DNA from: an uncultured Planctomycetaceae bacterium
GTDB lineage: Bacteria > Planctomycetota > Planctomycetia > Planctomycetales > Planctomycetaceae
Assembly (NCBI GenBank): GCA_937916515.1
Contig: CALFSX010000134.1
Span: forward strand, 1 to 38,604
DNA: 38,604 bases
Direction of reading: 5' to 3'
The notes below the pieces were generated by a model. That model had not been told where the DNA came from. It saw nothing but the letters and a program-made list of their open reading frames with translations, and did not search any database. Position numbers and translations under genes: made by a program. Positions 23,084 through 38,604 of this stretch are shown piece by piece (the stretch's first letter is position 1; each line of letters starts with the position of its first letter).

Positions 23084-25000
23084 TTAGGTGGAGGACGCAG
23101 AAGCTGTCGGAGCGACCACTGGCGCAGATTCCGGCTCCGCAGCGGGTGTCACTTCTACGGGTGTCGCTTCAGCGGGTGCCGCAGTTGCTGGTGCAGTTGC
23201 TGCAGGCTCGACACCAGCTGGCGTTGCTTCCGCTGGCAACGAATCCGTGGTCGGCGAAGCGGCAGGTGCCTGCTGCTCAGCCGCCTCTTCACCTGTCGCA
23301 GGTTGCTCTACGGCTTCCGGCTTGCTGACTGGTTCAATCAGTTCTCGTTGACGAAGATTTTCGCCCAGCCTTAGCCGCCAGATGCCTTCAGCGTCCGCCA
23401 GCAGAATGTGGCGTTTGGAAATTTCCGTGACTTCAACGTCGATATCGGACGCTGTCAGACGCTCGCCGACTTTCACTTCCGGACGCTTGTTTTCTGCCTG
23501 ATTCCAGAACCAGGCAACCGGCACGCCATCCAGCCCTACCGCGCCGGTAAAGCGAGTCAGAATGGCCATGTCGTCCTGAACCTTCAACGTAATTGGCCCA
23601 CTGGCTGACTTTGCTGGAGTTCCCGAATCCGTTACCTTCACAGTGACGGTGTAATCCCCAGGAGTAAACGTTTTTGGGGGAGTCCAATTCAGTACTCCGC
23701 TGCCATCAATCGTCAAGCCAGCTGGTGGTTCACCATCGAAAGAGAACTTCAGTTTGTCCGCCGCGCCATCGTCTGTTGCGGAAACCGTTGTGGAAAAATC
23801 TCGCCCCAGTACCACAACAGCACTGGCGGGAACTTCGATTTTGGGATCTGCGTTGGGAAGCAAAATTGTAATGGCCAGCTTCTTTTCGACACGCAGGCTC
23901 TCGTCGTTGTTTTGGGTCAACACAACGGTGGCTTCGTACGTTTTCGGTTCCAGATCAGCTGCCGGCGTCCATTCGAATTCGCCTGTTTCCGCGTTGATCG
24001 CCATACCTTCCGCCGCGTTTTCCAGAGAAAATACGGCAGCTCCAACGCTGGTGTTGAGGTCTTCCGCTTTTGCCGCAATCTTAACCGCTTCGCCGGGACC
24101 AATCGTCTTATCGCTGATTGCCAATCGTGGCTTGTAAACACGATCAGGCTTCGGCTTCGTGAATGGCGATGCCGCAAGGAAGTTTTCGTAGTCGGTGAAT
24201 TCTGAACTCTGACGAACTTCAGCAACCGGAAACAGAAAGACGTTTTGATCAGCTGGGTGAGCAACGGAAACTGTATTCAGCAGCCCGCGTTTTACGGTCC
24301 ACGTACCGCCATCAACAGTCTCAACTTCTACCATTTCTCTGCCAATCTGCACAAGAAACGGAGTCTTCTGTGGGAAGTCTGCGCTTTCGGCCACTTTGAT
24401 TTCAGTTGACTTTTCAGTGATCGGTGCAGCAATCAGCGTTCGAGGAAACACGTCGCTTTTGACGGGGCTTTTATCAACGCTCATACCTTCGGCGGTCAGC
24501 GTGATTTCCATGCGAGGATTGTCCTGTGAGCCGGTACTGGCGATATCCAGAGACGAAACGCGATGCATCAGGTCGGCTTTTTCAAACAGAAACAGAAACT
24601 TGCTAAGTCCTTCCAAATCCGTTTCGGCTTCAACATCCACATTGACCGTCAGATATTGACCGGGACGATTTTCTGTACGACCAGGCGTGACCTTCAACTG
24701 AGCAAACTTGCACTGTTCAGACAGGTTGGTAATCCACGACTGATACAGCCGCTGCGCATCGGAAATTTTGGGCGGCAGACTGACGGCTTTCCCCTCAGAA
24801 ATGCGCTTTCTGGCGCGTACGACTTCACCCTGTTTTTCGTAGGCCGTATCAAATCGTTTGTTGGCGTTTTGCAAATCAGACTGGGCTTCAGTGATCGGCC
24901 TCATTAACGCGCGGTCAGGTCTGATAAACATAAACCCCAGCACTCCTACAAGTGCCGCAGCCAGAATTTTAGTTCGTTTTGATTCGTCCATTTCACTCAC
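23084..25000 (-). CDS. Fused PilO/GspM-like, Ig-like and GspC/PilP-like secretion protein
   Basis: 638 residues. A short cytoplasmic N-terminus leads to one membrane helix (about 11-27). A coiled-coil and ferredoxin-like part (about 35-180, with YLTVNVDVEAETDLEGLSKFLFLFEK) resembles PilO/GspM. Residues about 290-474 contain two cadherin/putative-Ig modules (INAETGEFEWTPA and IDGSGVLNWTPP). Residues 478-550 (VPVAWFWNQ...KVGERL...LADAEGIWRLRLGENL) resemble the homology region of GspC or PilP. The Ala/Pro/Glu-rich tail (about 556-638) is disordered. It is the last gene of the operon, 61 bp after the PilM/PilN-like gene. The GTG at 25000 or the ATG at 24991 starts it. It is likely the inner-membrane/periplasmic connector. 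Confidence 0.72.
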   Translation of the reverse strand: MSEMDESKRTKILAAALVGVLGFMFIRPDRALMRPITEAQSDLQNANKRFDTAYEKQGEVVRARKRISEGKAVSLPPKISDAQRLYQSWITNLSEQCKFAQLKVTPGRTENRPGQYLTVNVDVEAETDLEGLSKFLFLFEKADLMHRVSSLDIASTGSQDNPRMEITLTAEGMSVDKSPVKSDVFPRTLIAAPITEKSTEIKVAESADFPQKTPFLVQIGREMVEVETVDGGTWTVKRGLLNTVSVAHPADQNVFLFPVAEVRQSSEFTDYENFLAASPFTKPKPDRVYKPRLAISDKTIGPGEAVKIAAKAEDLNTSVGAAVFSLENAAEGMAINAETGEFEWTPAADLEPKTYEATVVLTQNNDESLRVEKKLAITILLPNADPKIEVPASAVVVLGRDFSTTVSATDDGAADKLKFSFDGEPPAGLTIDGSGVLNWTPPKTFTPGDYTVTVKVTDSGTPAKSASGPITLKVQDDMAILTRFTGAVGLDGVPVAWFWNQAENKRPEVKVGERLTASDIDVEVTEISKRHILLADAEGIWRLRLGENLRQRELIEPVSKPEAVEQPATGEEAAEQQAPAASPTTDSLPAEATPAGVEPAATAPATAAPAEATPVEVTPAAEPESAPVVAPTASASST

Positions 25001-25061: not shown

Positions 25062-26528
25062 TCAGGCCTTAACAGCGGGTTTTTCCTTGGGGGGTGTCGG
25101 GATATTAACTTCCAGCCGAAGCTCCATATTGTAGTTTGGATCTTTCAGGCTTTGCGTAATTTCTGTGGGTTTGACTTCATAGCCAGCTTCCGTCAACACA
25201 CGCATCAGGTCTTCGATATCTCGACGCGACTTGGCGTAACCTTCTGCATCAAAAGCAGCAATATAGTCGCCGCTCATCAGATGAAAATTGAACTTCTTGA
25301 TGAACACCCGATCGGTGCCACCCATTAGCCCCTGCAGCTTCTGCATTTCATCCAGCCAGCTGATATCGCGATCGCTCCACGATGCCAGGTTAGCGGCCAG
25401 CTTCAATTCGTTACTGGCCAGCTTATAGGCACCTTCCATGTCCTCCACTTCACCAGAAACGGCGGCGACTTCTTTTTGAATGGCTGTCACTTTCGCTTCT
25501 CGCCACTTCCAGCCACCCACCAGAGCTAAAACAGCAACGCCGGCGAGCAACAGTTTTTTGACTCGACTGTAGTCGCTTTTTTCGGGCGTTCGTCGTGGAT
25601 TCACAAGGTCAACGGAAGTTACCGATGGCGTTTGCACGTTGGCAACAACGCCCGCAATGGCCAGCAGGTCAGTCGCCGAAATCCCAGTAAACGAACCACT
25701 AAGCAACGCATTCTGCGGGTCAACTCGAGCCACGTCGGCATCGTTCAACCGTTTTGTGATCGAATCCGGAACGGCAGCCGTCACGTCCGGGCTGCCAATC
25801 AACGTCAGGCGACGAACGACATAGCTGCCCATGTCGCCTTCGGCAGCCATACGAGCTCTGGAAATCTCCGAACGTACGGCCTGCTCAATTGCTTCAATCG
25901 ACGTCCACGATGCACCGCTGTGAGAAAAAGCGACGTTGTGCCCTGACATGAAGATCATTTCGATCGAATCAGAACCCAAAGCAATAATCGCTTCGACTGC
26001 TCTGCTGTCAGCATTCTTCTGCATCAATCCCGAATGCACAACCGATGCCGCGATGCCAAACGAACTGACGCGCACTCCCTTTAGCTCGATCGCACAAACA
26101 TCCAAAGCTTCTTTGACCTGATTGATATACTGTCGAGGCACAGTTACCAGCAACACGTCTCGTGTTTCCGAACCCGCCGGAATCGGCAGCGGAGCGAAGT
26201 CCATATACACGGATTCAACGGGCACCGTCAGGCGAGTCGCCGCCTGCATCTTCACCATTTCCGGTATTTCATCGTCACCGATGTTAGGCAACGTGATGCG
26301 ACTGAACGTGACCAGATTACGTTCAAAAACCACAATCGCTTCGTTGGCGGTCACGCCCACGGACTTCAAGCCTGCCGCCAGCTTTTCGCCCAGTTCAGAA
26401 GGCAGCAATTCGCCGCCCTGACGATCGATGCTGACCGCAGACTGAATTTTTACCGAACTGCTTTCCGCAGAACCCAAGGCCGCCAACAAGCGGTCTCGGC
26501 CCCATTCGATAACAAGTGTTTCAGACAT
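25062..26528 (-). CDS. gspL: GspL-like protein (PilM and PilN parts in one chain)
   Basis: 488 residues. Residues 1-295 are an actin-like cytoplasmic domain of the PilM/GspL type (MSETLVIEWGRDRLLAALG, paired sheets around GVRVSSFGIAASVV). VDLVNPRRTPEKSDY (about 307-320) corresponds to the PilN segment before the membrane. One helix spans about 325-341, and a coiled-coil plus ferredoxin-like periplasmic domain follows. PilM and PilN are separate in type IV pilus systems and fused as GspL in type II secretion. It couples the ATPase to the pseudopilus platform. It is separated from gspK by 312 bp containing a dispersed repeat, so it may have its own promoter. Confidence 0.8.
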   Translation of the reverse strand: MSETLVIEWGRDRLLAALGSAESSSVKIQSAVSIDRQGGELLPSELGEKLAAGLKSVGVTANEAIVVFERNLVTFSRITLPNIGDDEIPEMVKMQAATRLTVPVESVYMDFAPLPIPAGSETRDVLLVTVPRQYINQVKEALDVCAIELKGVRVSSFGIAASVVHSGLMQKNADSRAVEAIIALGSDSIEMIFMSGHNVAFSHSGASWTSIEAIEQAVRSEISRARMAAEGDMGSYVVRRLTLIGSPDVTAAVPDSITKRLNDADVARVDPQNALLSGSFTGISATDLLAIAGVVANVQTPSVTSVDLVNPRRTPEKSDYSRVKKLLLAGVAVLALVGGWKWREAKVTAIQKEVAAVSGEVEDMEGAYKLASNELKLAANLASWSDRDISWLDEMQKLQGLMGGTDRVFIKKFNFHLMSGDYIAAFDAEGYAKSRRDIEDLMRVLTEAGYEVKPTEITQSLKDPNYNMELRLEVNIPTPPKEKPAVKA

Positions 26529-26840: not shown

Positions 26841-28472
26841 CTATTGGCTGCCATCCGTCGCACTTTTCAACATGCTGGGATGGTAGCCTCGCCCCAGCGT
26901 CGTAAGGTCTCGAACAAAACTGATTTGCGGTGGATAAATTGTCGCGTCAATCATGGCTTCCATGCGGGTGGTCGGCCCACCTTCGTCGAAATGCCCGATC
27001 GATTGAAATCGATAAATATCCCCGCCGGTGGTGATGTAGGGCCCCAGGTCTCGCAGTGTGGCAAGATCCACCAGCCCTTCTGCCAGAATCCAGGCAGCCG
27101 TGTTGCGGCGAGCCATAATCGTTGATGAAGCACTTTCCAATGTCACCGGTGGACGGGAGCTGATGATATCATCGGGCAACCCTTCCGGAATATAAGGAAT
27201 CGCCATCAACACTTCGCGGCGAGCCTGGTTGATGTTGATTCGACCTTCGATATAAGCATCTTCATTGATCGTCAGCGTCTGTTCCAGATCCGGAAAGATA
27301 TTCAACAGAGTGTTAGCGTCTTCCGTCCACGGGCTGAGAAAGCTTTGGTTTGTCCCACTTAGCATTTTGACCGGATTGGTTTCACCGCCAATCAATTCAT
27401 ACAACGATGTAAACTGATAGGCGGGCACAACGGTCAGGTCGATATCGTTGCGTGAAATTTTATCGGTGATTCCCGAGTCCGTCGCCGGCAGGCCCTCAGT
27501 CGAATAGTCCGTGCCACCCAATCGGTAAGCCACCACAAAACTGGCGGCATCAGCCCCATACAGTTCTTCAATGGCATCGTACAGCTCAGTCATCTCACCC
27601 ATATTCAGGTTAATTTTCGCTTCACCTTCCGGTGTGGAATTGCGTTCGCGACTGGTAGCAGTCAGATAGTCTTTCCAGCCGAGATCCAGGATTCCGTCAG
27701 CATTGTCCATTGGCAAAGTTTTGTCGCCATCGTTTTCGTTAGGGTCCAGCAGTCCGTTTTTGTTGGCATCTTCACCGTAAAACAGATCCGGTGTGACTCC
27801 CTGAATCTTCAGCAATTCTTCAATCGATTCCATGGGAGCATTCTTGCATTCGTAGGGAATCGCCAAGGCCTGATAGTCTGAATTTTCCGCTCCATAGGGC
27901 CGTCGTTCGTCGTCGGAATCGAGCCAATCCAAAATCGAATCCATCACCTCGTCGGTCATGTTTGGAATGTTGGAAACCGCCATCGACACCAGCCCCAGCT
28001 TCTCGTCGTCCGGTAACGCTTCTTCAAGAGCGTCCAGTTCCAGCATCTTGTTGATATTGAATTTCGCACTTTCATTGGCCAGGCCAAACCGCACGTTGCC
28101 GGACGTGGTGTTGGTTTCATCGATGGCTAAAATGGTGCAGCGAACTCGCCCACGATCGACGGTTGAATCAGCGATCAACCGACCTCGAAAGAAATCCGGA
28201 TCGTTGTACAGATTGATCGTGCTGTCAGCATCGCGTTCCAGAATGCGAGTGGCGGCATATTCGATTCCGGACTCCGCGGCTGTTCTGGCCAACAGGTCTC
28301 GCCCGCCCATCACCACGGCTTCGTGTTCGACAAGCATTGTTCCTGAATAGTTGTAGGCGGCAAAGGTCAGCAACACGATGGTGATCGTCACCACTGCCAA
28401 AATGAAGCCACGACGCCCCGGCGACAATGCTGGAATGCCTGACAGTTTGCCCGCGGAAACTTTGGTTTTCAT
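26841..28472 (-). CDS. gspK: Type II secretion minor pseudopilin GspK
   Basis: 543 residues from the ATG at 28472, which overlaps the gspJ stop by 4 bases (ATGA); a longer frame upstream is not needed. The prepilin-like N-terminus GRRGFILAVVTITIVLLTFA cleaves after Gly22 and lacks Glu at +5, as GspK does. The body contains the large alpha-helical T2SSK domain (DEVMDSILDWLDSDDE, GINQAR-like INQARREVLMAIPY, and YGADAASFVVAYRLGG), longer than in proteobacterial GspK (about 320). It caps the pseudopilus with GspI and GspJ. It may bind calcium through acidic stretches such as EDANKNGLLDPNEND, which resembles an EF-hand-like loop. Confidence 0.88.
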   Translation of the reverse strand: MKTKVSAGKLSGIPALSPGRRGFILAVVTITIVLLTFAAYNYSGTMLVEHEAVVMGGRDLLARTAAESGIEYAATRILERDADSTINLYNDPDFFRGRLIADSTVDRGRVRCTILAIDETNTTSGNVRFGLANESAKFNINKMLELDALEEALPDDEKLGLVSMAVSNIPNMTDEVMDSILDWLDSDDERRPYGAENSDYQALAIPYECKNAPMESIEELLKIQGVTPDLFYGEDANKNGLLDPNENDGDKTLPMDNADGILDLGWKDYLTATSRERNSTPEGEAKINLNMGEMTELYDAIEELYGADAASFVVAYRLGGTDYSTEGLPATDSGITDKISRNDIDLTVVPAYQFTSLYELIGGETNPVKMLSGTNQSFLSPWTEDANTLLNIFPDLEQTLTINEDAYIEGRININQARREVLMAIPYIPEGLPDDIISSRPPVTLESASSTIMARRNTAAWILAEGLVDLATLRDLGPYITTGGDIYRFQSIGHFDEGGPTTRMEAMIDATIYPPQISFVRDLTTLGRGYHPSMLKSATDGSQ

Positions 28473-29323
28473 ATCGACGTTTCTCCCACGTATGGAGGCG
28501 CAACCAGAATGGGAACAACCAGGCGATGCACAGATTCGGGCATCCAGCCAGGGATATTTTCCGGGGTTCGAGCATCTTGGGGGTCTGTCAATGTCCGCAA
28601 TGTCAAATTGACAACGATGGCAATTGGCATGGCGTTTTGCACGGTGCTGTCCCATTCCGTCTGCAATTCCACGCCGTCCCAGTATTCGAACGTGATCCCG
28701 GAAACTTCTTTGGCCAGCAATTGAGACGCCTGCTTCTGCATATCCACGTCACCGTTGCTGATCGCAAGACTTAAACCGGAAAGGTCACCCTGCATGCGTC
28801 CCAGCCCGACAATTGTTTCCGACGAATTGCCTTGAATGCTGTCAGATGCCAGTTCGCCCGATAGCCCACCGGCCCCCTTTTCGGCCAGCAAATAGCGAAC
28901 AATCATCGCGTCACTGCTGCGATCGGCGGGACTGGTCACTTCCTGAGCCGCCACGTAACTATTCGTTCGATCCGGTCGGCTGATGTACAACACCAGATCG
29001 GATGATGAACCAAACAGTCCGTTGGTATAGGATGCCATGGCAGTGTCAGCATCAACGGCTTCGTCGCTGTCACCATCGTCGTCTGATTCGGATGTGTCCT
29101 GTTCCACAAACGTTGCCGACTGAATATCGCGAGCCATTTCACGCAGGATGGCTCTGGCGATCTGACCTCGTTCAATTTCTTCGTAGCTGTCGGTTGCGGA
29201 CGTCCAATAGATATTCATGGCGGAATACATGGCGGCCATCAGCAACGACGTCAGCCCCACCGCAACCAGCACTTCGATGATCGTAAAACCGCGACCTGTC
29301 GTTTCAGCGGAAAGTCGTTTCAT
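28469..29323 (-). CDS. gspJ: Type II secretion minor pseudopilin GspJ
   Basis: 284 residues. Class III prepilin signal GRGFTIIEVLVAVG, cleaved after Gly12 with Glu at +5 (Glu17), and a following hydrophobic helix. The downstream sequence (SATDSYEEIERGQIARAILREMARDIQSA) fits the alpha-helical spine of GspJ. It is larger than typical GspJ (about 200), with an acidic insert (SESDDDGDSDEAVDADTA). It sits in the pseudopilus tip with GspI and GspK. It overlaps gspI by 4 bases and gspK by 4 bases. Confidence 0.85.
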   Translation of the reverse strand: MKRLSAETTGRGFTIIEVLVAVGLTSLLMAAMYSAMNIYWTSATDSYEEIERGQIARAILREMARDIQSATFVEQDTSESDDDGDSDEAVDADTAMASYTNGLFGSSSDLVLYISRPDRTNSYVAAQEVTSPADRSSDAMIVRYLLAEKGAGGLSGELASDSIQGNSSETIVGLGRMQGDLSGLSLAISNGDVDMQKQASQLLAKEVSGITFEYWDGVELQTEWDSTVQNAMPIAIVVNLTLRTLTDPQDARTPENIPGWMPESVHRLVVPILVAPPYVGETSI

Positions 29324-29814
29324 TCGTCCGACTCCGCTTCTTCAGCCGCCATGGCGGCATCCAAAAACAGCTGCGGATCTCGCATCAATCGCGAAAGCTG
29401 AAAGTACGAATTCGCCTGCGTTCCGTTAACGACGTGTTCCACCAGAACCGTAACTTTCAACAAACTTGTACCGCCTCCATCTTCCACTTCGGTTGTGTAC
29501 TGCCAGGCTTCCGACGAAGACAGTTCACCAGAATCCGGGAACGGAACTGCAGCTTCGGCCTTTAACGGCAGAATACCGGAGACATATTCCCCCATTAAAC
29601 TTTCACAGCGCAAAGCGGCTTCTGCGTCCAGCCGGGCGCTCAGCCGTGATTCATGGCCGACTCGCATGATCTGCAGAATTGCCGTTAGTGCTCCCAGAAA
29701 GATCGCCGTGGAAATCAGCACTTCCAAAAGGGATATACCGGATCGGCGAGCGGTGCGTGACAGTCCTCGAGATGACCGCTGTTGCCACGTTTCATGTTGC
29801 AAGTAGCGTTTCAC
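29320..29814 (-). CDS. gspI: Type II secretion minor pseudopilin GspI
   Basis: 164 residues. The start is a GTG at 29814, which overlaps the gspH stop by one base. The prepilin motif RSGISLLEVLISTAIFLG cleaves after Gly26 with Glu at +5. The leader is unusually long (26 residues). The length and the position between H and J fit GspI. It forms the pseudopilus tip complex. The last residues are acidic (AAEEAESDE). Confidence 0.82.
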   Translation of the reverse strand: MKRYLQHETWQQRSSRGLSRTARRSGISLLEVLISTAIFLGALTAILQIMRVGHESRLSARLDAEAALRCESLMGEYVSGILPLKAEAAVPFPDSGELSSSEAWQYTTEVEDGGGTSLLKVTVLVEHVVNGTQANSYFQLSRLMRDPQLFLDAAMAAEEAESDE

Positions 29815-30416
29815 TAGTCATCCTCCTGATAAACCAGCCCGGTTTTCGAGGTGCCAGTGAGACCACGCAAAGTAACTTTGCAGGTTAACCCTTCTTTATC
29901 AGAGACTCGGAATACGAAGTCATCAGATGTTCCATCAAAGCGAAACAGCACAGCAGTCGCCCATGCCTTCTGAGCAAGTTGCGATCCGCCCAGCTGTCCA
30001 AAGCGTTCCGGGTCCAGCGTTTCGGTCGCCATTTCAACATCTTCGTCCGCTCGAATTCGCATGCCTTCCGGCAGTTCCACCAACATGCGGATGTAGGAGT
30101 CTGTTGTCGTACTCTGACCGGCTTCGTTAACGTTTTGTTCGCTTTCAGATGGCAGCACCACAGCTGTTGCACCGTTGACTTCGAAGCGAAACTCATAGTC
30201 GATCCCGGTATCAATGGCGTAACGACGTGTTTCACCCAGACTGGCACGAACCTGGTCCGCCGCATCAAAAACGGCGTTCTCCCGCATCAATGACATCAGC
30301 TGCGGCGACGCCATGGCAGAAATCATGGCGATGATGGCTACAACCACCATCAATTCCAACAACGAAAAGCCAGCGGCCATTCGCGATGTCTGGGATTGTG
30401 GTTGAAGTCGTTTCAT
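29814..30416 (-). CDS. gspH: Type II secretion pseudopilin GspH
   Basis: 200 residues from the ATG at 30416 (a GTG at 30425 would add three). Prepilin motif AAGFSLLELMVVVAIIAMISAMASP, cleaved after Gly16 with Glu at +5. The remainder is beta-rich (YEFRFEVNGATAVVLP and VLFRFDGTSDDFVFRV), as in GspH/FimT. It is a minor pseudopilin connecting the tip to GspG. It is separated from gspG by about 147 bp containing a strong inverted repeat. Confidence 0.83.
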   Translation of the reverse strand: MKRLQPQSQTSRMAAGFSLLELMVVVAIIAMISAMASPQLMSLMRENAVFDAADQVRASLGETRRYAIDTGIDYEFRFEVNGATAVVLPSESEQNVNEAGQSTTTDSYIRMLVELPEGMRIRADEDVEMATETLDPERFGQLGGSQLAQKAWATAVLFRFDGTSDDFVFRVSDKEGLTCKVTLRGLTGTSKTGLVYQEDD

Positions 30417-30435
30417 GGCGTTCACACAGCATGAC

Positions 30436-30563: not shown

Positions 30564-31037
30564 CTACTCTGTATCACGGCTTAGATTGCTGACGTCGTCA
30601 GAACTTTTGCTTCCGCCGCCATCCTGTCCATCGGGACCGAACGACCAGATACGTGGCTTCAGGTCGGTATTGGAATCATAGGCGTACTGAAATTCGCGGT
30701 TCCATGCGTCGCGCGGCACTTCTTCCAGAACCGGTTGTTGCTGCTTACCAAGTGCATCCTCCCAGGGCTGAGCAAGTGCTCGAATAACTTCCGAGCCGCT
30801 GCCGGAATCGAATACACCATTCATTTTCACCGCTTTGCGTTTGAAAGCATCTTCAACCGTCCGAATCGTAGCTCGCGTGGTCGAGATGTTCGCATCCTGA
30901 GCACTGCCGATCAGGTTTGGTGCGACCATGGCAGCCAGGGCCACGATGATTCCCAGAACGATCAAAAGTTCCAAAAGCGTAAAACCAGACCGCAATGCCT
31001 TAACTGCCGGACGTTGAACTTTCGTCATCAATTTCAT
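30564..31037 (-). CDS. gspG: Type II secretion major pseudopilin GspG
   Basis: 157 residues. The prepilin motif RSGFTLLELLIVLGIIVALAA cleaves after Gly18 with Glu23 at +5. The C-terminal part has PWEDALGKQ and PRDAWNREFQYAYDSNTDLKPRIWSFGPDGQDGG, the calcium-binding-type loop of GspG. A GGAAAA ribosome-binding site precedes the ATG at about 8 bp. It is the main pseudopilus subunit, extracted from the membrane by GspE action. It has a 337-bp gap upstream to gspF, so it may have an extra promoter. Confidence 0.92.
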   Translation of the reverse strand: MKLMTKVQRPAVKALRSGFTLLELLIVLGIIVALAAMVAPNLIGSAQDANISTTRATIRTVEDAFKRKAVKMNGVFDSGSGSEVIRALAQPWEDALGKQQQPVLEEVPRDAWNREFQYAYDSNTDLKPRIWSFGPDGQDGGGSKSSDDVSNLSRDTE

Positions 31038-31374: not shown

Positions 31375-32586
31375 TTATTTCATACTGGACATATTCAGAA
31401 TTGGTAAAAGCAGAGCGGCAATCACAAACGTAACGATCGTTGCCATAAACAACAACATTATGGGTTCCAGCATGCGAACGACGACGTCGATCTTGCGGCT
31501 GGTGTATTTTTCCAGACTGTCGGCGATACCAATCAGCACGTTTTCCAGATTATTCGCTTCTTCACCGATCGAAATCATTTCCACGATTTCTCGCGAAAAC
31601 TGCCCACTGGCTCTAAGAGGCACGGCCAGAGACTTACCGCCAGAAACGTTATCCGCCGCGTTACCAATGGCCTGACTCAGCACCGCGTTACCGCTGGCAT
31701 CTTTCGCAATCTTCAACGACTGCAGAATTGGCACACCGTTGCCAAGCAGAGTTCCCAGCATGCGGCAAAATCGAGCCACCGCCAGATTCTGCACGATTGT
31801 GCCCAATCCCGGTGCTTTTAGCTTCCAGCGGTCAAGCTGTTCCTGGCCTTCCGGATTATCCTGATAGTGCATGATGACAGCAGCAACAGCTAAACCAATC
31901 GCTGGAAAAATGATGTACCACCAGCTTTGGAGACTCTCGCTAAATGACATCAGTGCCGTCGTCGCCCACGGCAACTTGCCCTGATCTCTCATACGCCCAA
32001 AAATCGCAGCGAACTCGGGCACGAACCACACCAGCAACACAGTGATGATAATCGTACCGACGCCCATCAGGAACAACGGGTACACCATGGCTCCCGTAAC
32101 TTTGCCTTTCAGTTCTTCCTGATGATCGTTGAATGCGGCCACTCGAGCCAGCACGTCTTCCAGAAAGCCGCCTTCTTCACCCGCCTTGACCATGCTGATG
32201 GTCAGACTGTTAAACGCTTTGGGATGACGGCGCATCGCGTCGTTAAGTCGCGTACCTTCGGCAACCTGTTCGTGAATATCCTGAGTCACATACTTCAGCG
32301 CCGGGTGAGACGTTTGGTCCTGCAGCAGCGTAAGTGACTTCAGCAGCGGAACGCCGGAACGCAGCAGGTCAGACAACTGGTTATAGAAGGTCGTCAGAAT
32401 TCGACCGGGCACTCGTTTGGAGCCGCTGATGGCCTGCTTTTTGGTCGCCTCAGAAATTCCGATCTTCATCGGAAACAGTCCCTGAGACTGCAATGCAGAC
32501 AGCGCATCTTTTTCGCTGCCGGCACTCAGAATTCCTGTGACCTGCTTTCCTGAAAGTTGTCTGGCTGTGTAAGCAAATTCTGGCAT
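31375..32586 (-). CDS. gspF: Type II secretion inner-membrane platform protein GspF
   Basis: 403 residues, the normal length. MPEFAYTARQLSGKQVTG is the usual N-terminus of GspF/PilC. Two T2SSF domains are seen (about 65-190, with LRSGVPLLKSLTLL and KAGEEGGFLEDVLARVA; and about 268-390, with LGNGVPILQSLKIAKD and SIGEEANNLENVLIGIA). Three membrane helices are visible: MVYPLFLMGVGTIIITVLLV, YIIFPAIGLAVAAVI and IMLLFMATIVTFVIAALLLP. It is the membrane platform that works with GspE to assemble the pseudopilus. It lies 72 bp after gspE. Confidence 0.95.
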   Translation of the reverse strand: MPEFAYTARQLSGKQVTGILSAGSEKDALSALQSQGLFPMKIGISEATKKQAISGSKRVPGRILTTFYNQLSDLLRSGVPLLKSLTLLQDQTSHPALKYVTQDIHEQVAEGTRLNDAMRRHPKAFNSLTISMVKAGEEGGFLEDVLARVAAFNDHQEELKGKVTGAMVYPLFLMGVGTIIITVLLVWFVPEFAAIFGRMRDQGKLPWATTALMSFSESLQSWWYIIFPAIGLAVAAVIMHYQDNPEGQEQLDRWKLKAPGLGTIVQNLAVARFCRMLGTLLGNGVPILQSLKIAKDASGNAVLSQAIGNAADNVSGGKSLAVPLRASGQFSREIVEMISIGEEANNLENVLIGIADSLEKYTSRKIDVVVRMLEPIMLLFMATIVTFVIAALLLPILNMSSMK

Positions 32587-32658: not shown

Positions 32659-34362
<1,704 letters not shown>

Positions 34363-34413: not shown

Positions 34414-37400
34414 TTATCGTCCACCGCGAGTGCCGCCGCCACGAGTTCCGCCACCGCCACCGAATGGGCTTGCTCCGCCACCAAAGCCGGTACGACCGCC
34501 ACCTGGCGTTGTGCCACCACCAAAGCCTGTTCGGCCGCCACCGGGAGTTGTGCCGCCGCCAAAGCCTGTTCGACCGCCACCGGGAGTTGTGCCACCACCA
34601 CCTCGCATCTGCATCATTCGATTGAAGGCATCCTGCTGAGGATTTGACGAACTGCCACCGGAAGAATCACCACCAGATGAACCAGAAGTATTGCTGCCCG
34701 AAGTGCCGCTGCCACCGGTTCGGGAAGACGAAACAGAAACACGAGGAATCAACGCAGAAATGGATTGTTGAATCATGGAAGCGTCTGCATTCTTCAATTG
34801 AATCACTCGAATACCGGGATTCGCAATTCGAGTTGATTCGTCCAGTTGGCGGACTACAAGTTCCACTTCTTCAAACAGACTCTGGTTGCAGTTTACGGTC
34901 AGCGTGCTGGTTTGAGTGTCAGCGGCAATCATCATGCGAACCTGTTGAGCTGCATCGTCACCACCTCGACCGCCTCCGCCGCCCAGCATCGCTGCAAAGG
35001 GGTTTTGTTGCTGCTGCCGTCCGCCACCCTGCGATTCCGTATATACCTTAAACACTTCCTTCAGGTGCGACTCCACGTCTCGCACGTCAGCGTATTCCAC
35101 CTGAATAAAGTGAGGCTGCATGTCCTTCAGTGATTCCGGAATGTCGTTCGAATCCAGAACATCCAGAAACGTCAAAGCATCTTTGATCATCATTTGCGGG
35201 CCCGTCATAAACAGCGAGTTTGTGCGTGGGTCCGGAATGATTTTCAGCGAATTGGAACTGGCCCCCAGTCCGCTTAATCCCGTCATATCCATCAGGCTAC
35301 TGCCCATAGACGACATGCTGCTTCCAAGGCTGCCCAACATGCTTCCACCGGAAGACGAAGAAGAGCTTGCTACAGAGCTGCTGGGAAAAAACTGAGACAA
35401 CATATCGGCGGCTTCAAGAGCATCAGCCGACTTCAGGTACACCACAGTATATTCCGGCTTAAACGGCATTGACTGCTGCAACTGGTCCATCAAATCTTCC
35501 AGCCGATCCAATTCTGCTTCGTCTGGTGAAGACAGAATCAACTGATCGCCGTAGACGATGACATCGACGCCTTTTTTTCCAGATGAATCGTTTGAATCAG
35601 ATTCCGTTTGCTCAGCCGCTGCCGACTGCTCGTCCTGCTGATAGGCGGACGCCACTGCAGTCAATTGGTTGGTAGGTTTTCGCCACTGTTTCCAATGATC
35701 GCCCGACGCATTTTTTGAACCACGACTTGTTTGAGAAACATCATCACCTGGCTCTGACGATGTTTGCGGTTGACGGCGATCTACGCCGGTTTCCACTTCG
35801 CCCGTTGTGCGGCGACTGCGAATCGGACCGGGTTCGTTGGGAATGATGATGTTGATTTTCTGAGTCTCATTGGCGTCCCAGGCCTGCTTTAGAATTTTCA
35901 CGAAGTCTTCCGGGTTGCGGCCCTGCAAAGAGAACTGACGAACCGTTCCGCCGTCGCCACGAGCTCGAACCCCTGTGCCGTCTTCGCCAAGATCGGCCAG
36001 CACCTGCTTAATTTGAGTGATCTGATCCATGTCGCCACGCACAATCAGGCGGCGCCCGTAAAGATCCGTTTCAATTGTGGGTGCATCGGTGCCATCCGCA
36101 TAAAACAGGCTTCGCAAAGTTGCAGCTGCGGAAAGTGGATCCATTTGTGCCAGCTGAATCACGGCAACCATTCCACTGGAACCACTGCCATCCAGTTGAC
36201 GAATGATCACGGCGACTTCTTCATGCTGTCGCTCGGAAGCCATGATGTGAATTTTCCCGGTGGATCGCTCTTCATTGACCACGGTGACTCCAGCAATATT
36301 CATCGCCGTCAGAGTCTTGGTGACTTCCCCAGCATCCGCTGTCTTAACGGTATAGACCTCCAGATAAACCCCCTTGCGACCACGAGTCAGAGATTCACCG
36401 TTGGGGCCTTCAGAAACGTCCAGCGACGCCAGAATTTCCTCAACCAGTTTATGCTGCGCGGCTGTGCCTGTGACAAGCAGACCGTTCAATCGCAGGTCAG
36501 AAGCAATCTGAATCGTGGGTTCAGTTTTGGCTGCCGGCGTGGGGGCTCCACCGCGTTGAGGCGGCTGTTGAGCCTGAGTTCGTGACTGCATCCGGGATTG
36601 CATTTCCACCGCGGAGCTTACGTTTGTTGCGCCCTGTCGCATGCCGAACTGCGTCTTAACCTGCAGTTCAGCTTCTTCAGCATCCATATTTTTCAGATAG
36701 TAGGCCTTAAACAGCAACGCGTCCGGTTTCGATTTGCTCATCGCAGCTGTCAGCAATGCGTGAATTCGTCGCAGACTGCCGCCGGTATCGGTGACAATCA
36801 AAATCGAAGACTCAGTCAATGCGATCAGGCTGCCATGTGGGCCAACAATAGCTTCCACTTCCTGAGCAGCTCTGGCGGTATCCATGCCTTCGATGGGCAT
36901 CGTGACACTCACAAGCTGGTGTTCGCCAACTTCAAATCCGTCACTATTAATTTGAACCAGTTCTTCAATGGTCGCGCTCGGCACCAGATAAGGCGGAATT
37001 CCATTGTCGACGTTCAACACGATTAGAAAACCGTTGTTTTCCATCATCGCGTATCCCTTGCGAAGCAAATAACCGTTCAAGATGTCCAGCGTTTGCCTGG
37101 GAGTGTACTTGTTGTCGTCGTAGTGGCTGAACGTTCCTGGTGGGATCTGATTCAGGTCCAGAGTTAACCCGGCACCGTCTGCGTACATCTGCAGAACCTG
37201 TTCCCAGGGAGCACCACGGAAGTTGAAGCTGAATTCCTCAACTCGCTTGCGTTCACCCGCAACTGTTCCGCCCCCGAATGTGCTGACCACTTCACCTGCA
37301 GGCACCACTTGGCCCGGAACCATAACCGAACCAACAATACCAACCGCCGGTTGGCCATTGGCTGCAACGGCCGTGGTTGCTGGTTGTTCGCCTTCAGCAG

Positions 37401-38007
37401 ATTCTTTTTCAAAGCGAGCTTTCTGTTCCGGCGTTAGTTCCGCCATAAACTTGCTCTGCCAATCCGCGTTGAATTTGTCACGATCCTCTTCCGATGCTCC
37501 AGAAGGCAAGTCGCGTGCTGCGTTGCGACGCAGATCAGAAAGCTCGTTAATCTTCGCGATCTGTTCCTGAGTGATGCCGTAATCTGCGGCGACGGTTGCG
37601 TCTGTTAATCCTCGTGGTCCCGCACTTCGCAAAAACACGCCTCGAAGCTTCTTCTTCTGGCTGTCGTTCAGAACGTTAATTGTGGCTTTCTTGAATTCCA
37701 GCCCGGCGTTGGCAACTGCGGCCGTCATCTCAGCGCGAACAGCCGCTTCGGCTTCTTTGTCCGGAGCGTCTTTAATTCGCTGCAGAAACGGTTCAAAGAA
37801 CTCACGACCGGGGGAGGAGTTCTTTTGAGCTTCCTCCAGCTTGGTAATCTGAGTTTCGGATAAGCCCAACTCCGCTCTGACTTCCTGACGACGCAGCAAA
37901 TCGGATTCTGAGCCGCCTCCCCGCTGAGCCATCGCAGAACTGCAGGCTGAGCCAAGAATAACGATCAAAACGAGCAATGATTGAAATCTACGCTGAAAGT
38001 CTGTCAT
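34414..38007 (-). CDS. GspD-like secretin N-domain protein without a visible pore domain
   Basis: 1197 residues from the ATG at 38007; the 30 upstream in-frame residues precede a good signal peptide (LLVLIVILGSACSSAMA, cleaved before QRGGG). Residues about 35-205 are helical with LTxxQ/Spy-like modules (LGLSETQITKLEEAQ, YGITQEQIAKI, LTPEQKARFEKE). About 255-335 is an STN/N0-like domain (EFSFNFRGAPWEQVLQMYADGAGLTLDL). Then several secretin N1-type repeats follow (AYYLKNMDAEEAELQVKTQF, IQLAQMDPLSAAATLRSLF, VVYLKSADALEAADMLSQFF, FIQVEYADVRDVESHLKEVF, RVIQLKNADASMIQQSISAL). The C-terminus is a Gly/Thr/Pro repeat, and I find no VPxLGxIPxLGxLF-type barrel motif. It is the first gene of the operon. 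Confidence 0.85.
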   Translation of the reverse strand: MTDFQRRFQSLLVLIVILGSACSSAMAQRGGGSESDLLRRQEVRAELGLSETQITKLEEAQKNSSPGREFFEPFLQRIKDAPDKEAEAAVRAEMTAAVANAGLEFKKATINVLNDSQKKKLRGVFLRSAGPRGLTDATVAADYGITQEQIAKINELSDLRRNAARDLPSGASEEDRDKFNADWQSKFMAELTPEQKARFEKESAEGEQPATTAVAANGQPAVGIVGSVMVPGQVVPAGEVVSTFGGGTVAGERKRVEEFSFNFRGAPWEQVLQMYADGAGLTLDLNQIPPGTFSHYDDNKYTPRQTLDILNGYLLRKGYAMMENNGFLIVLNVDNGIPPYLVPSATIEELVQINSDGFEVGEHQLVSVTMPIEGMDTARAAQEVEAIVGPHGSLIALTESSILIVTDTGGSLRRIHALLTAAMSKSKPDALLFKAYYLKNMDAEEAELQVKTQFGMRQGATNVSSAVEMQSRMQSRTQAQQPPQRGGAPTPAAKTEPTIQIASDLRLNGLLVTGTAAQHKLVEEILASLDVSEGPNGESLTRGRKGVYLEVYTVKTADAGEVTKTLTAMNIAGVTVVNEERSTGKIHIMASERQHEEVAVIIRQLDGSGSSGMVAVIQLAQMDPLSAAATLRSLFYADGTDAPTIETDLYGRRLIVRGDMDQITQIKQVLADLGEDGTGVRARGDGGTVRQFSLQGRNPEDFVKILKQAWDANETQKINIIIPNEPGPIRSRRTTGEVETGVDRRQPQTSSEPGDDVSQTSRGSKNASGDHWKQWRKPTNQLTAVASAYQQDEQSAAAEQTESDSNDSSGKKGVDVIVYGDQLILSSPDEAELDRLEDLMDQLQQSMPFKPEYTVVYLKSADALEAADMLSQFFPSSSVASSSSSSGGSMLGSLGSSMSSMGSSLMDMTGLSGLGASSNSLKIIPDPRTNSLFMTGPQMMIKDALTFLDVLDSNDIPESLKDMQPHFIQVEYADVRDVESHLKEVFKVYTESQGGGRQQQQNPFAAMLGGGGGRGGDDAAQQVRMMIAADTQTSTLTVNCNQSLFEEVELVVRQLDESTRIANPGIRVIQLKNADASMIQQSISALIPRVSVSSSRTGGSGTSGSNTSGSSGGDSSGGSSSNPQQDAFNRMMQMRGGGGTTPGGGRTGFGGGTTPGGGRTGFGGGTTPGGGRTGFGGGASPFGGGGGTRGGGTRGGR
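34475..34591. repeat. Three 39-bp tandem repeats inside the gspD-like gene
   Basis: Units 34475-34513, 34514-34552 and 34553-34591 encode a 13-residue Gly-rich unit (GGGTTPGGGRTGF). Units 2 and 3 are nearly identical in DNA; unit 1 has diverged more. The repeat is in frame and forms part of the protein's low-complexity C-terminus, so copy number may vary between strains. Confidence 0.85.
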
Positions 38008-38425: not shown

Positions 38426-38604
38426 ATGAAATTCCTGCAGAAAACAGCATTTTTGCTGACAATTACCATGTTGCTTTCCGGCAACGCCCTCGCTCAACGC
38501 GGCGGCGGTGGTGATCGAACTGGCGGCGGCGATCGAGGCGGCTTTGGCGGACGTGGCGGCACACCTGGAGCACCAACAAGTGGATTCAGCCGAGGTGGAT
38601 TCGG
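38426..38604 (+). CDS. Exported Gly/Arg-rich protein, truncated by the window edge
   Basis: 59 complete codons are visible and the frame is open at the right edge. MKFLQKTAFLLTITMLLSG is a signal peptide ending in NALA before QRGGGGDRTGGG; the mature start is Gly, Arg and Asp-rich with GGFGGRGG repeats. The mature N-terminus (QRGGG) is the same as that of the divergent gspD-like protein. A GAGAAAG ribosome-binding site precedes the ATG. The function cannot be told from this part; it may be a helical or EF-hand-type periplasmic protein working with the secretion system. Too short to be in a standard frame list. Confidence 0.75.
   Translation, partial: MKFLQKTAFLLTITMLLSGNALAQRGGGGDRTGGGDRGGFGGRGGTPGAPTSGFSRGGF

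Follow-up and report, generated by a model that had tools for sequence, protein, structure and literature searches.

A gene designated D1, which leads a type II secretion system (T2SS) operon of an uncultured Planctomycetaceae bacterium, was found to encode a GspD-like protein without the secretin barrel. The gene lies in a 38,604-nucleotide stretch of DNA (contig CALFSX010000134.1, assembly GCA_937916515.1), referred to in full as the window. GspD is one polypeptide, in which domains N0–N3 are combined with the barrel. Since D1 was shown to co-occur with a separate barrel protein, D2, often in the same operon and elsewhere as a collinear fusion, the lower half of a secretin is the reading that fits D1 best. 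D1 is probably the part nearer the inner membrane in a T2SS secretin of two subunits, the gene of which is split within an N1 domain, and D1 and D2 would be expected to interact.

An earlier reading made from the sequence alone (the sequence-only reading) had described many N1-like repeats ending in a Gly-rich tail where the barrel should be, and these features were borne out. PF00263, the secretin barrel, was not matched in D1 by Pfam up to E = 1, and AlphaFold2 predicted no beta-barrel in residues 900–1197. The model (53 sequences, mean predicted local distance difference test [pLDDT] 71.6, predicted template modelling score 0.34) is usable for the domain folds and, given the latter score, not for the domain arrangement. 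After the seventh N1-type domain it contains helices 1076–1086 and 1123–1136, with the last strand by residue 1039, while residues 1086–1125 and 1137–1197 have pLDDT < 50. A barrel hidden in the tail was ruled out by Pfam and AlphaFold2 together.

The resemblance of the N-domain part of D1 to secretins is not due to chance. Secretin_N (PF03958) matched in five stretches (E = 2.7e-35), and all seven N1-type domains were predicted to fold as beta-alpha-beta-beta-alpha. The NCBIfam GspD model scored 126.7 bits (cut-off 351), best over profile positions 160–296 of 600. Foldseek against PDB gave 28 matches at E ≤ 0.001, all titled T2SS secretin, type II secretion system or injectisome needle complex, including PulD (6hcg, E = 3.3e-9) and crystals of the XcpQ and GspD N-domains; a profile from 53 D1 sequences compared with solved structures retrieved secretins only at E ≤ 0.01 (17 sequences). 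The proposed STN/N0-like domain is a putative N0, supported by the fold in the model and by resemblance to N0 domains in other secretins of the genome (by a hidden Markov model [HMM] for which D1 was part of the training set); the Pfam models of STN and N0 gave no match up to E = 1. The helical LTxxQ-type region was likewise found, being helical in the model, with LTXXQ at E = 0.97 on the whole chain and 1.8e-6 on the excised region; E was ≤ 0.1 in 39 of 41 excised regions (41 of the 53 aligned D1s were scanned). This region gave no Foldseek match in PDB at E ≤ 0.001, and as Spy appeared only at E = 7.3, no chaperone-like role is claimed for it. The signal peptide stands as a signal-like start recognized by eye.

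The barrel-less D1 is a conserved form. From 126 confirmed loci in named genomes, the best 80 were kept; being the nearest relatives, they do not sample fused forms in other groups. No ORF with a barrel was seen in any of the 80 loci. D1 was the best open reading frame (ORF) in 79 of the 80 loci, and 63 of these ORFs touched neither locus edge. None of these 63 complete proteins (1103–1572 aa) contained a barrel, as judged by our own barrel model built from five secretins of the window's genome, and Pfam detected PF00263 in 0 and Secretin_N in all of 14 D1s, that of the window included. An own 3′ end was seen in 67 D1s, 60 of them with at least 900 bases beyond it, and gspE was the next gene in 48 of these 60. 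A pseudogene, frameshift or assembly artefact that removed the barrel might explain why D1 ends inside an N1 domain, and is refuted by the relatives: the same end was found in dozens of assemblies, including single-contig genomes, and the gspE-like gene of the window starts 51 bases past the D1 stop.

The sequence-only reading had considered that the pore may be encoded elsewhere, and the comparative evidence bears this out. Six barrel proteins (PF00263) are encoded in the window's genome (8.33 Mb in 343 contigs, completeness 99%). One of these, the 1314-aa D2 on contig C50 (L008, 10753–14697, minus strand), contains an N0-like domain, seven N1-type matches and the barrel (Pfam Secretin 1.1e-43, Secretin_N ×7), and the gene after it is lipoprotein-like, with a lipobox recognized by eye. 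By its sequence, the C50 protein is the ortholog of D2s encoded in T2SS operons; the D2 of G020 showed 986 bits against it, compared with 345 bits against the secretin on contig C49. Regions around D1 were retrieved from ten genomes of the family, most of them picked for a nearby barrel gene. The order D1-E-F...J-K-L-M-D2-lipoprotein was found in seven (G020, G009, G016, G117, G060, G087, and G097; some small pseudopilin genes were uncalled in some of these operons), and the gene after D2 matched the C50 lipoprotein in all seven (80–132 bits). In G014, the family search placed D2 at 11.1 kb from D1; the operon tail was unreadable because the ORF caller had picked a long antisense frame. Outside the family, other genes lie between D1 and gspE in G036; D1 follows gspM in G028, with D2 in the same region but apart; and the order in G031 is ...L-M-D1-D2, followed by a 198-aa ORF unmatched by the lipoprotein query.

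A survey of 100 genomes of the window's family matched D1 in 82 (E ≤ 1e-50) and the D2 query in 95 (E ≤ 1e-100). The D2 rows separated into two main types, here called D2a and D2b; D2a was assigned where the query start was < 280 or identity at least 44%, a rule fixed after the rows had been seen. D1 and D2a occurred together in 80 genomes, D1 only in 2, D2a only in 6 and neither in 12, 9 of which had D2b. In both D1-only genomes, fragments of D2 were found where contigs end, one such fragment lying on the contig that carries D1. The co-occurrence gave a Fisher value of 1.4e-9, which ignores relatedness. Among the 24 genomes with D1 and D2 on one contig, D2 was found 10.8–13.1 kb downstream on the same strand in 17 and 0.39–7.0 Mb away in the other 7. 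The remaining 56 genomes had them on different contigs, which says little as the assemblies are fragmented.

Both halves were also found in one piece. In three genomes of another family (G030, G025, and G034), D1 followed by D2 was present in one ORF of 2175–2328 aa. In the 2291-aa protein of G030, the D1 profile covered residues 70–942 (profile positions 252–1107 of 1196; 384 bits) and the D2 profile covered residues 1191–2130 in pieces, with weak N-domain cross-matches between the profiles (25–35 bits); the order was the same in G025 and G034. In a tree of N0 domains, the D1 N0s grouped with those of the fused proteins, apart from the D2 N0s (100/100). A second kind of one-piece form, a giant of 3240–3269 aa located after gspL-gspM in G031 and G035, contained one N0, one barrel and 31 N1 matches, some of which are weak; in the G031 giant, Pfam detected Secretin together with 28 stretches of Secretin_N. 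The two fused groups fell in different places in the D2 tree, the deepest forks of which are weak. Within the window's genus, G004 and G002 were shown to carry a second T2SS operon with the order D1b-E-F-...-K-L-M-D2b-lipoprotein-like ORF. D1b (2202/2141 aa) contained N0 and 20 N1 matches at E ≤ 0.001 (24–25 with weak ones) and no barrel was found in D1b of either genome; D2b (1317/1328 aa), at the operon tail, contained the barrel, and the lipoprotein-like ORF after it scored 33–40 bits. Three D2b genomes without D1a (G040, G051, and G092) had long D1-like frames of 2391–2701 aa.

The position of the split was examined by an N0/N1 HMM search. The last N1 match was a half domain (approximately model positions 2–29 of 70, first strand and helix) in 46 of 53 D1s, that of the window included; among the other seven, four reached positions 44–47, two ended in a whole N1 and one matched 32–48. 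Only the helix of the half domain is formed in the AlphaFold2 model of the window D1. As many of the half-N1 matches score < 5 bits, conservation is the better argument: mean entropy was 1.67 for the half N1, compared with 1.43–1.96 for whole N1s and 3.00 for the linker. D1b ends at the same N1 point without the Gly tail (by eye), the D1 profile running to residue 2198 of 2202. The D2s of G028 and G031 begin with a signal-like start and a linker followed by the second half of an N1, and at the junction in the fused protein a Gly-rich stretch resembling the D1 tail precedes the second half of an N1 (by eye). Together, this points to a split inside the Gly-rich loop of one N1 domain, with the second half apparently located where D2 starts, or close to it, in some families. 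The half-domain end of D1 would favour fission, and, with moderate confidence, the two N1 halves may reassemble as one domain that joins the subunits.

Besides the low half-N1 scores, the relatedness ignored by the Fisher value and the late fixing of the D2a rule, several observations weigh against a secretin split in this way. D2 is unlinked from the operon in the window's genus (its own genome and G004) and in G013, and the six D2a genomes without D1 at the threshold comprise two with a divergent D1 and four with paralog-like matches only. No T2SS gene was matched in 15 kb around each of the three fused genes of 2175–2328 aa, nor beside D2b in G040. As to the shared domain, the second-half N1 of the G028 and G031 D2s scores 8.0 and 13.0 bits; in family D2, the site of the missing first N1 half is poorly conserved (majority identity 0.44 vs. 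0.70), and D2b has a whole N1 at that site. Family D2 also has its own N0 and first N1, and could dock without D1. Finally, no T2SS or barrel gene was matched in 20 kb around either of two barrel-less paralogs in the window's genome.

These two paralogs, on contigs C327 (L042, 8401–11502, minus strand; 1033 aa) and C77 (L043, 9828–12461, minus strand; 877 aa), are N0 plus N1 proteins with Secretin_N ×6 each, and frames of ~860–1140 aa with similar partial matches were seen in other genomes. A scaffold role may apply to them, and the sequence-only reading had suggested such a periplasmic ring or scaffold for D1. D1 as a stand-alone ring that organises the T2SS or the envelope outside any pore-forming stack would be in line with the isolated paralogs and with the N0 carried by family D2, yet the operon place of D1, its co-occurrence with D2 and the collinear one-piece versions make this improbable, and a pore-independent scaffold role for D1 is the less well supported part of the sequence-only reading. 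The separate and, within the family, strongly diverged N0s of D1 and D2 could also mean that the two proteins take turns, each docking by its own N0, with D1 as a cap, regulator or storage ring. This was considered very unlikely, as the D2s of G036, G028, and G031, which belong to other families, have no detectable N0 and the fused forms hold both parts in one chain.

D1 might instead be a lower secretin half that receives its barrel from a protein other than the C50 D2, for instance the C49 secretin or another of the six barrel proteins. The C49 protein (L012, 3268–6111, plus strand) is a compact one-piece secretin of 947–948 aa, D1-like at residues 121–445 and D2-like at 409–803; it is flanked by a lipoprotein-like gene and a gene for a 1480-aa protein, and the gene after it shows weak similarity (36 bits) to the C50 lipoprotein. 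However, operon-encoded D2s match C50, as the G020 scores illustrate, and the C49 protein already has a D1-like N0 and stands beside other genes, which leaves this explanation little probability. Two further loci of the genome were noted. Contig C114 (L045, 9822 bases) carries an apparent second T2SS-like cluster, in which gspE points away from several pilin-like ORFs and one F-like ORF (by eye), and no PF00263 match was found on this contig; contig C38 (L013, 9740–14176, minus strand) encodes a secretin of 1478 aa, in which the PF00263 match is in two pieces separated by a long Gly-rich insert (by eye).

With D1 and D2 as the two halves of one secretin, a mechanism can be proposed. D1 would be exported, its N0 would dock on the inner-membrane platform and its N1 domains would stack as rings. 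The lipoprotein would help D2 to reach the outer membrane, D2 would sit atop the D1 stack and supply the pore, and the substrate or pseudopilus would pass through the column. A stack of this length would be well matched to the enlarged periplasm of planctomycetes. A bolder version is that planctomycete T2SS conduits are exceptionally long (~16 stacked N-type rings here, ~30 in the giants) and consist of two polypeptides spliced via the shared split N1, with the ring number set by gene length and the columns forming the outer-to-inner-membrane crateriform connections; this version was regarded as doubtful.

The genes that follow D1 are listed in Table 1. PF00437, PF00482, PF08334, PF11612, and PF21687 were all matched above the Pfam cut-offs in this operon, and all matched NCBIfam gsp models scored below the equivalog cut-off, with gspE also matching pilB (579.5 bits); the T2SS assignment therefore leans on GspG, GspJ, and GspK. 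GspC was not matched among the ten operon proteins scanned, nor GspN (PF01203) in the window's genome. The C-terminal domain of the protein in the gspM position showed a weak match to the GspC HR domain (3oss_C, E = 0.3), ranked under matches to designed proteins. This protein also matched He_PIG (2.2e-14), and its repeats vary among seven aligned relatives, perhaps as another envelope-length adaptation. Upstream of D1, a divergent gene, truncated where the window ends (38426–38604, plus strand), has a signal-like start and then a stretch rich in Gly and Arg, similar to what comes after the signal in D1; in G009, a gene upstream of D1 was similar to D1 (58 bits).

Table 1. Features of D1 and of the T2SS operon in the window.
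Feature	Position	Strand	Basis
D1, barrel-less GspD-like operon leader, 1197 aa	34414..38007	-	ORF, Pfam, AlphaFold2
Signal-peptide-like start, aa 1-26	37930..38007	-	By eye; model helix 2-21
All-helical LTXXQ-type region, aa 34-205	37393..37908	-	Model, Pfam on excised region
N0-like domain, aa 257-344 (model 259-332)	36976..37239	-	HMM, fold, Foldseek
N1-type domain 1, aa 365-425	36733..36915	-	HMM, model
N1-type domain 2, aa 432-529	36421..36714	-	HMM, model
N1-type domain 3, aa 548-605	36193..36366	-	HMM, model
N1-type domain 4, aa 613-672	35992..36171	-	HMM, model
N1-type domain 5 with disordered insert, aa 689-846	35470..35943	-	Model; missed by HMM in the window protein
N1-type domain 6, aa 852-952	35152..35454	-	HMM, model
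N1-type domain 7, aa 965-1061	34825..35115	-	HMM, model
Half of an N1 domain (first strand plus helix), aa 1065-1095	34723..34815	-	HMM positions 2-29 of 70, 14.7 bits
Ser/Gly-rich tail, mostly disordered, aa 1096-1197	34417..34722	-	Sequence, model
gspE-like ATPase	32659..34362	-	PF00437 8.7e-136, MshEN 3.2e-18
gspF-like	31375..32586	-	PF00482 3.8e-59
gspG-like major pseudopilin	30564..31037	-	PF08334 3.6e-12
gspH-like pseudopilin	29814..30425	-	N_methyl 1.8e-6; gspH 8.7e-8
gspI-like pseudopilin	29320..29814	-	gspI 2.9e-5
gspJ-like pseudopilin	28469..29323	-	PF11612 2.4e-6
gspK-like, start codon uncertain, overlaps gspJ	26841..28655	-	PF21687 1.6e-15
gspL/PilM-like	25062..26528	-	PF11104 1.5e-6
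gspM-position protein, Ig/cadherin-like repeats and conserved C-terminal domain	23084..25000	-	Named by place after gspL, no T2SSM match

Split secretins have been described for the type III secretion systems (T3SS) of rhizobia and Pseudomonas syringae, where passages of three papers report two separated genes, RhcC1 and RhcC2 (HrcIIC1/HrcIIC2; PMC3574062, PMC3973906, PMC3459982). One of these passages argues for distinct origins of RhcC1 and RhcC2, by partial gene replacement, and for RhcC1 it names PF03958, the first N-domain (PMC3459982). The planctomycete pair resembles them in having an N-terminal half and a barrel half in separate genes, with the secretin domain in the second half only. 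It differs in belonging to a T2SS, in being collinear with one-piece homologs and in the number of N1 domains of D1 (seven to > 20, with the end inside one), which is far higher than in RhcC1/RhcC2. The collinear fusions give indirect support to the idea that both split halves may assemble into one channel. Compared to GspD, PulD, and XcpQ, D1 shares the N1-type domains, a putative N0 and the place before gspE, and has its best structural matches among them, but it lacks the barrel and contains many more N domains. PilQ of Thermus thermophilus is described, in the part of the source consulted, as an extended N-domain ring stack that spans most of a wide periplasm (PMC5745081); it is one polypeptide with six rings, whereas D1 and D2 together have ~16 N-type domains and the giants ~30. 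Among the matches listed from the open PMC literature, no description of a planctomycetotal T2SS secretin that is split or has multiple N domains was found, a source without subscription papers and preprints. As a two-gene secretin is already known from T3SS, what appears to be new here is the T2SS form, the collinear halves and the many N domains.

The D1/D2 pair would explain where the channel of this T2SS is, and such a system could be overlooked or misjudged by models built around a single GspD. N-domain stacks of a few to ~30 domains, in one or two pieces, offer a natural series in which ring number may be compared with channel length. In Planctopirus limnophila, crateriform structures appear to fasten the inner membrane near the cell wall, according to passages of one paper (PMC5394234), and the passages on these structures name no protein for them. 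A link between crateriform structures and the D1/D2 system is speculation; it would make D1 and D2 candidates for these structures, by which a long-standing question becomes testable.

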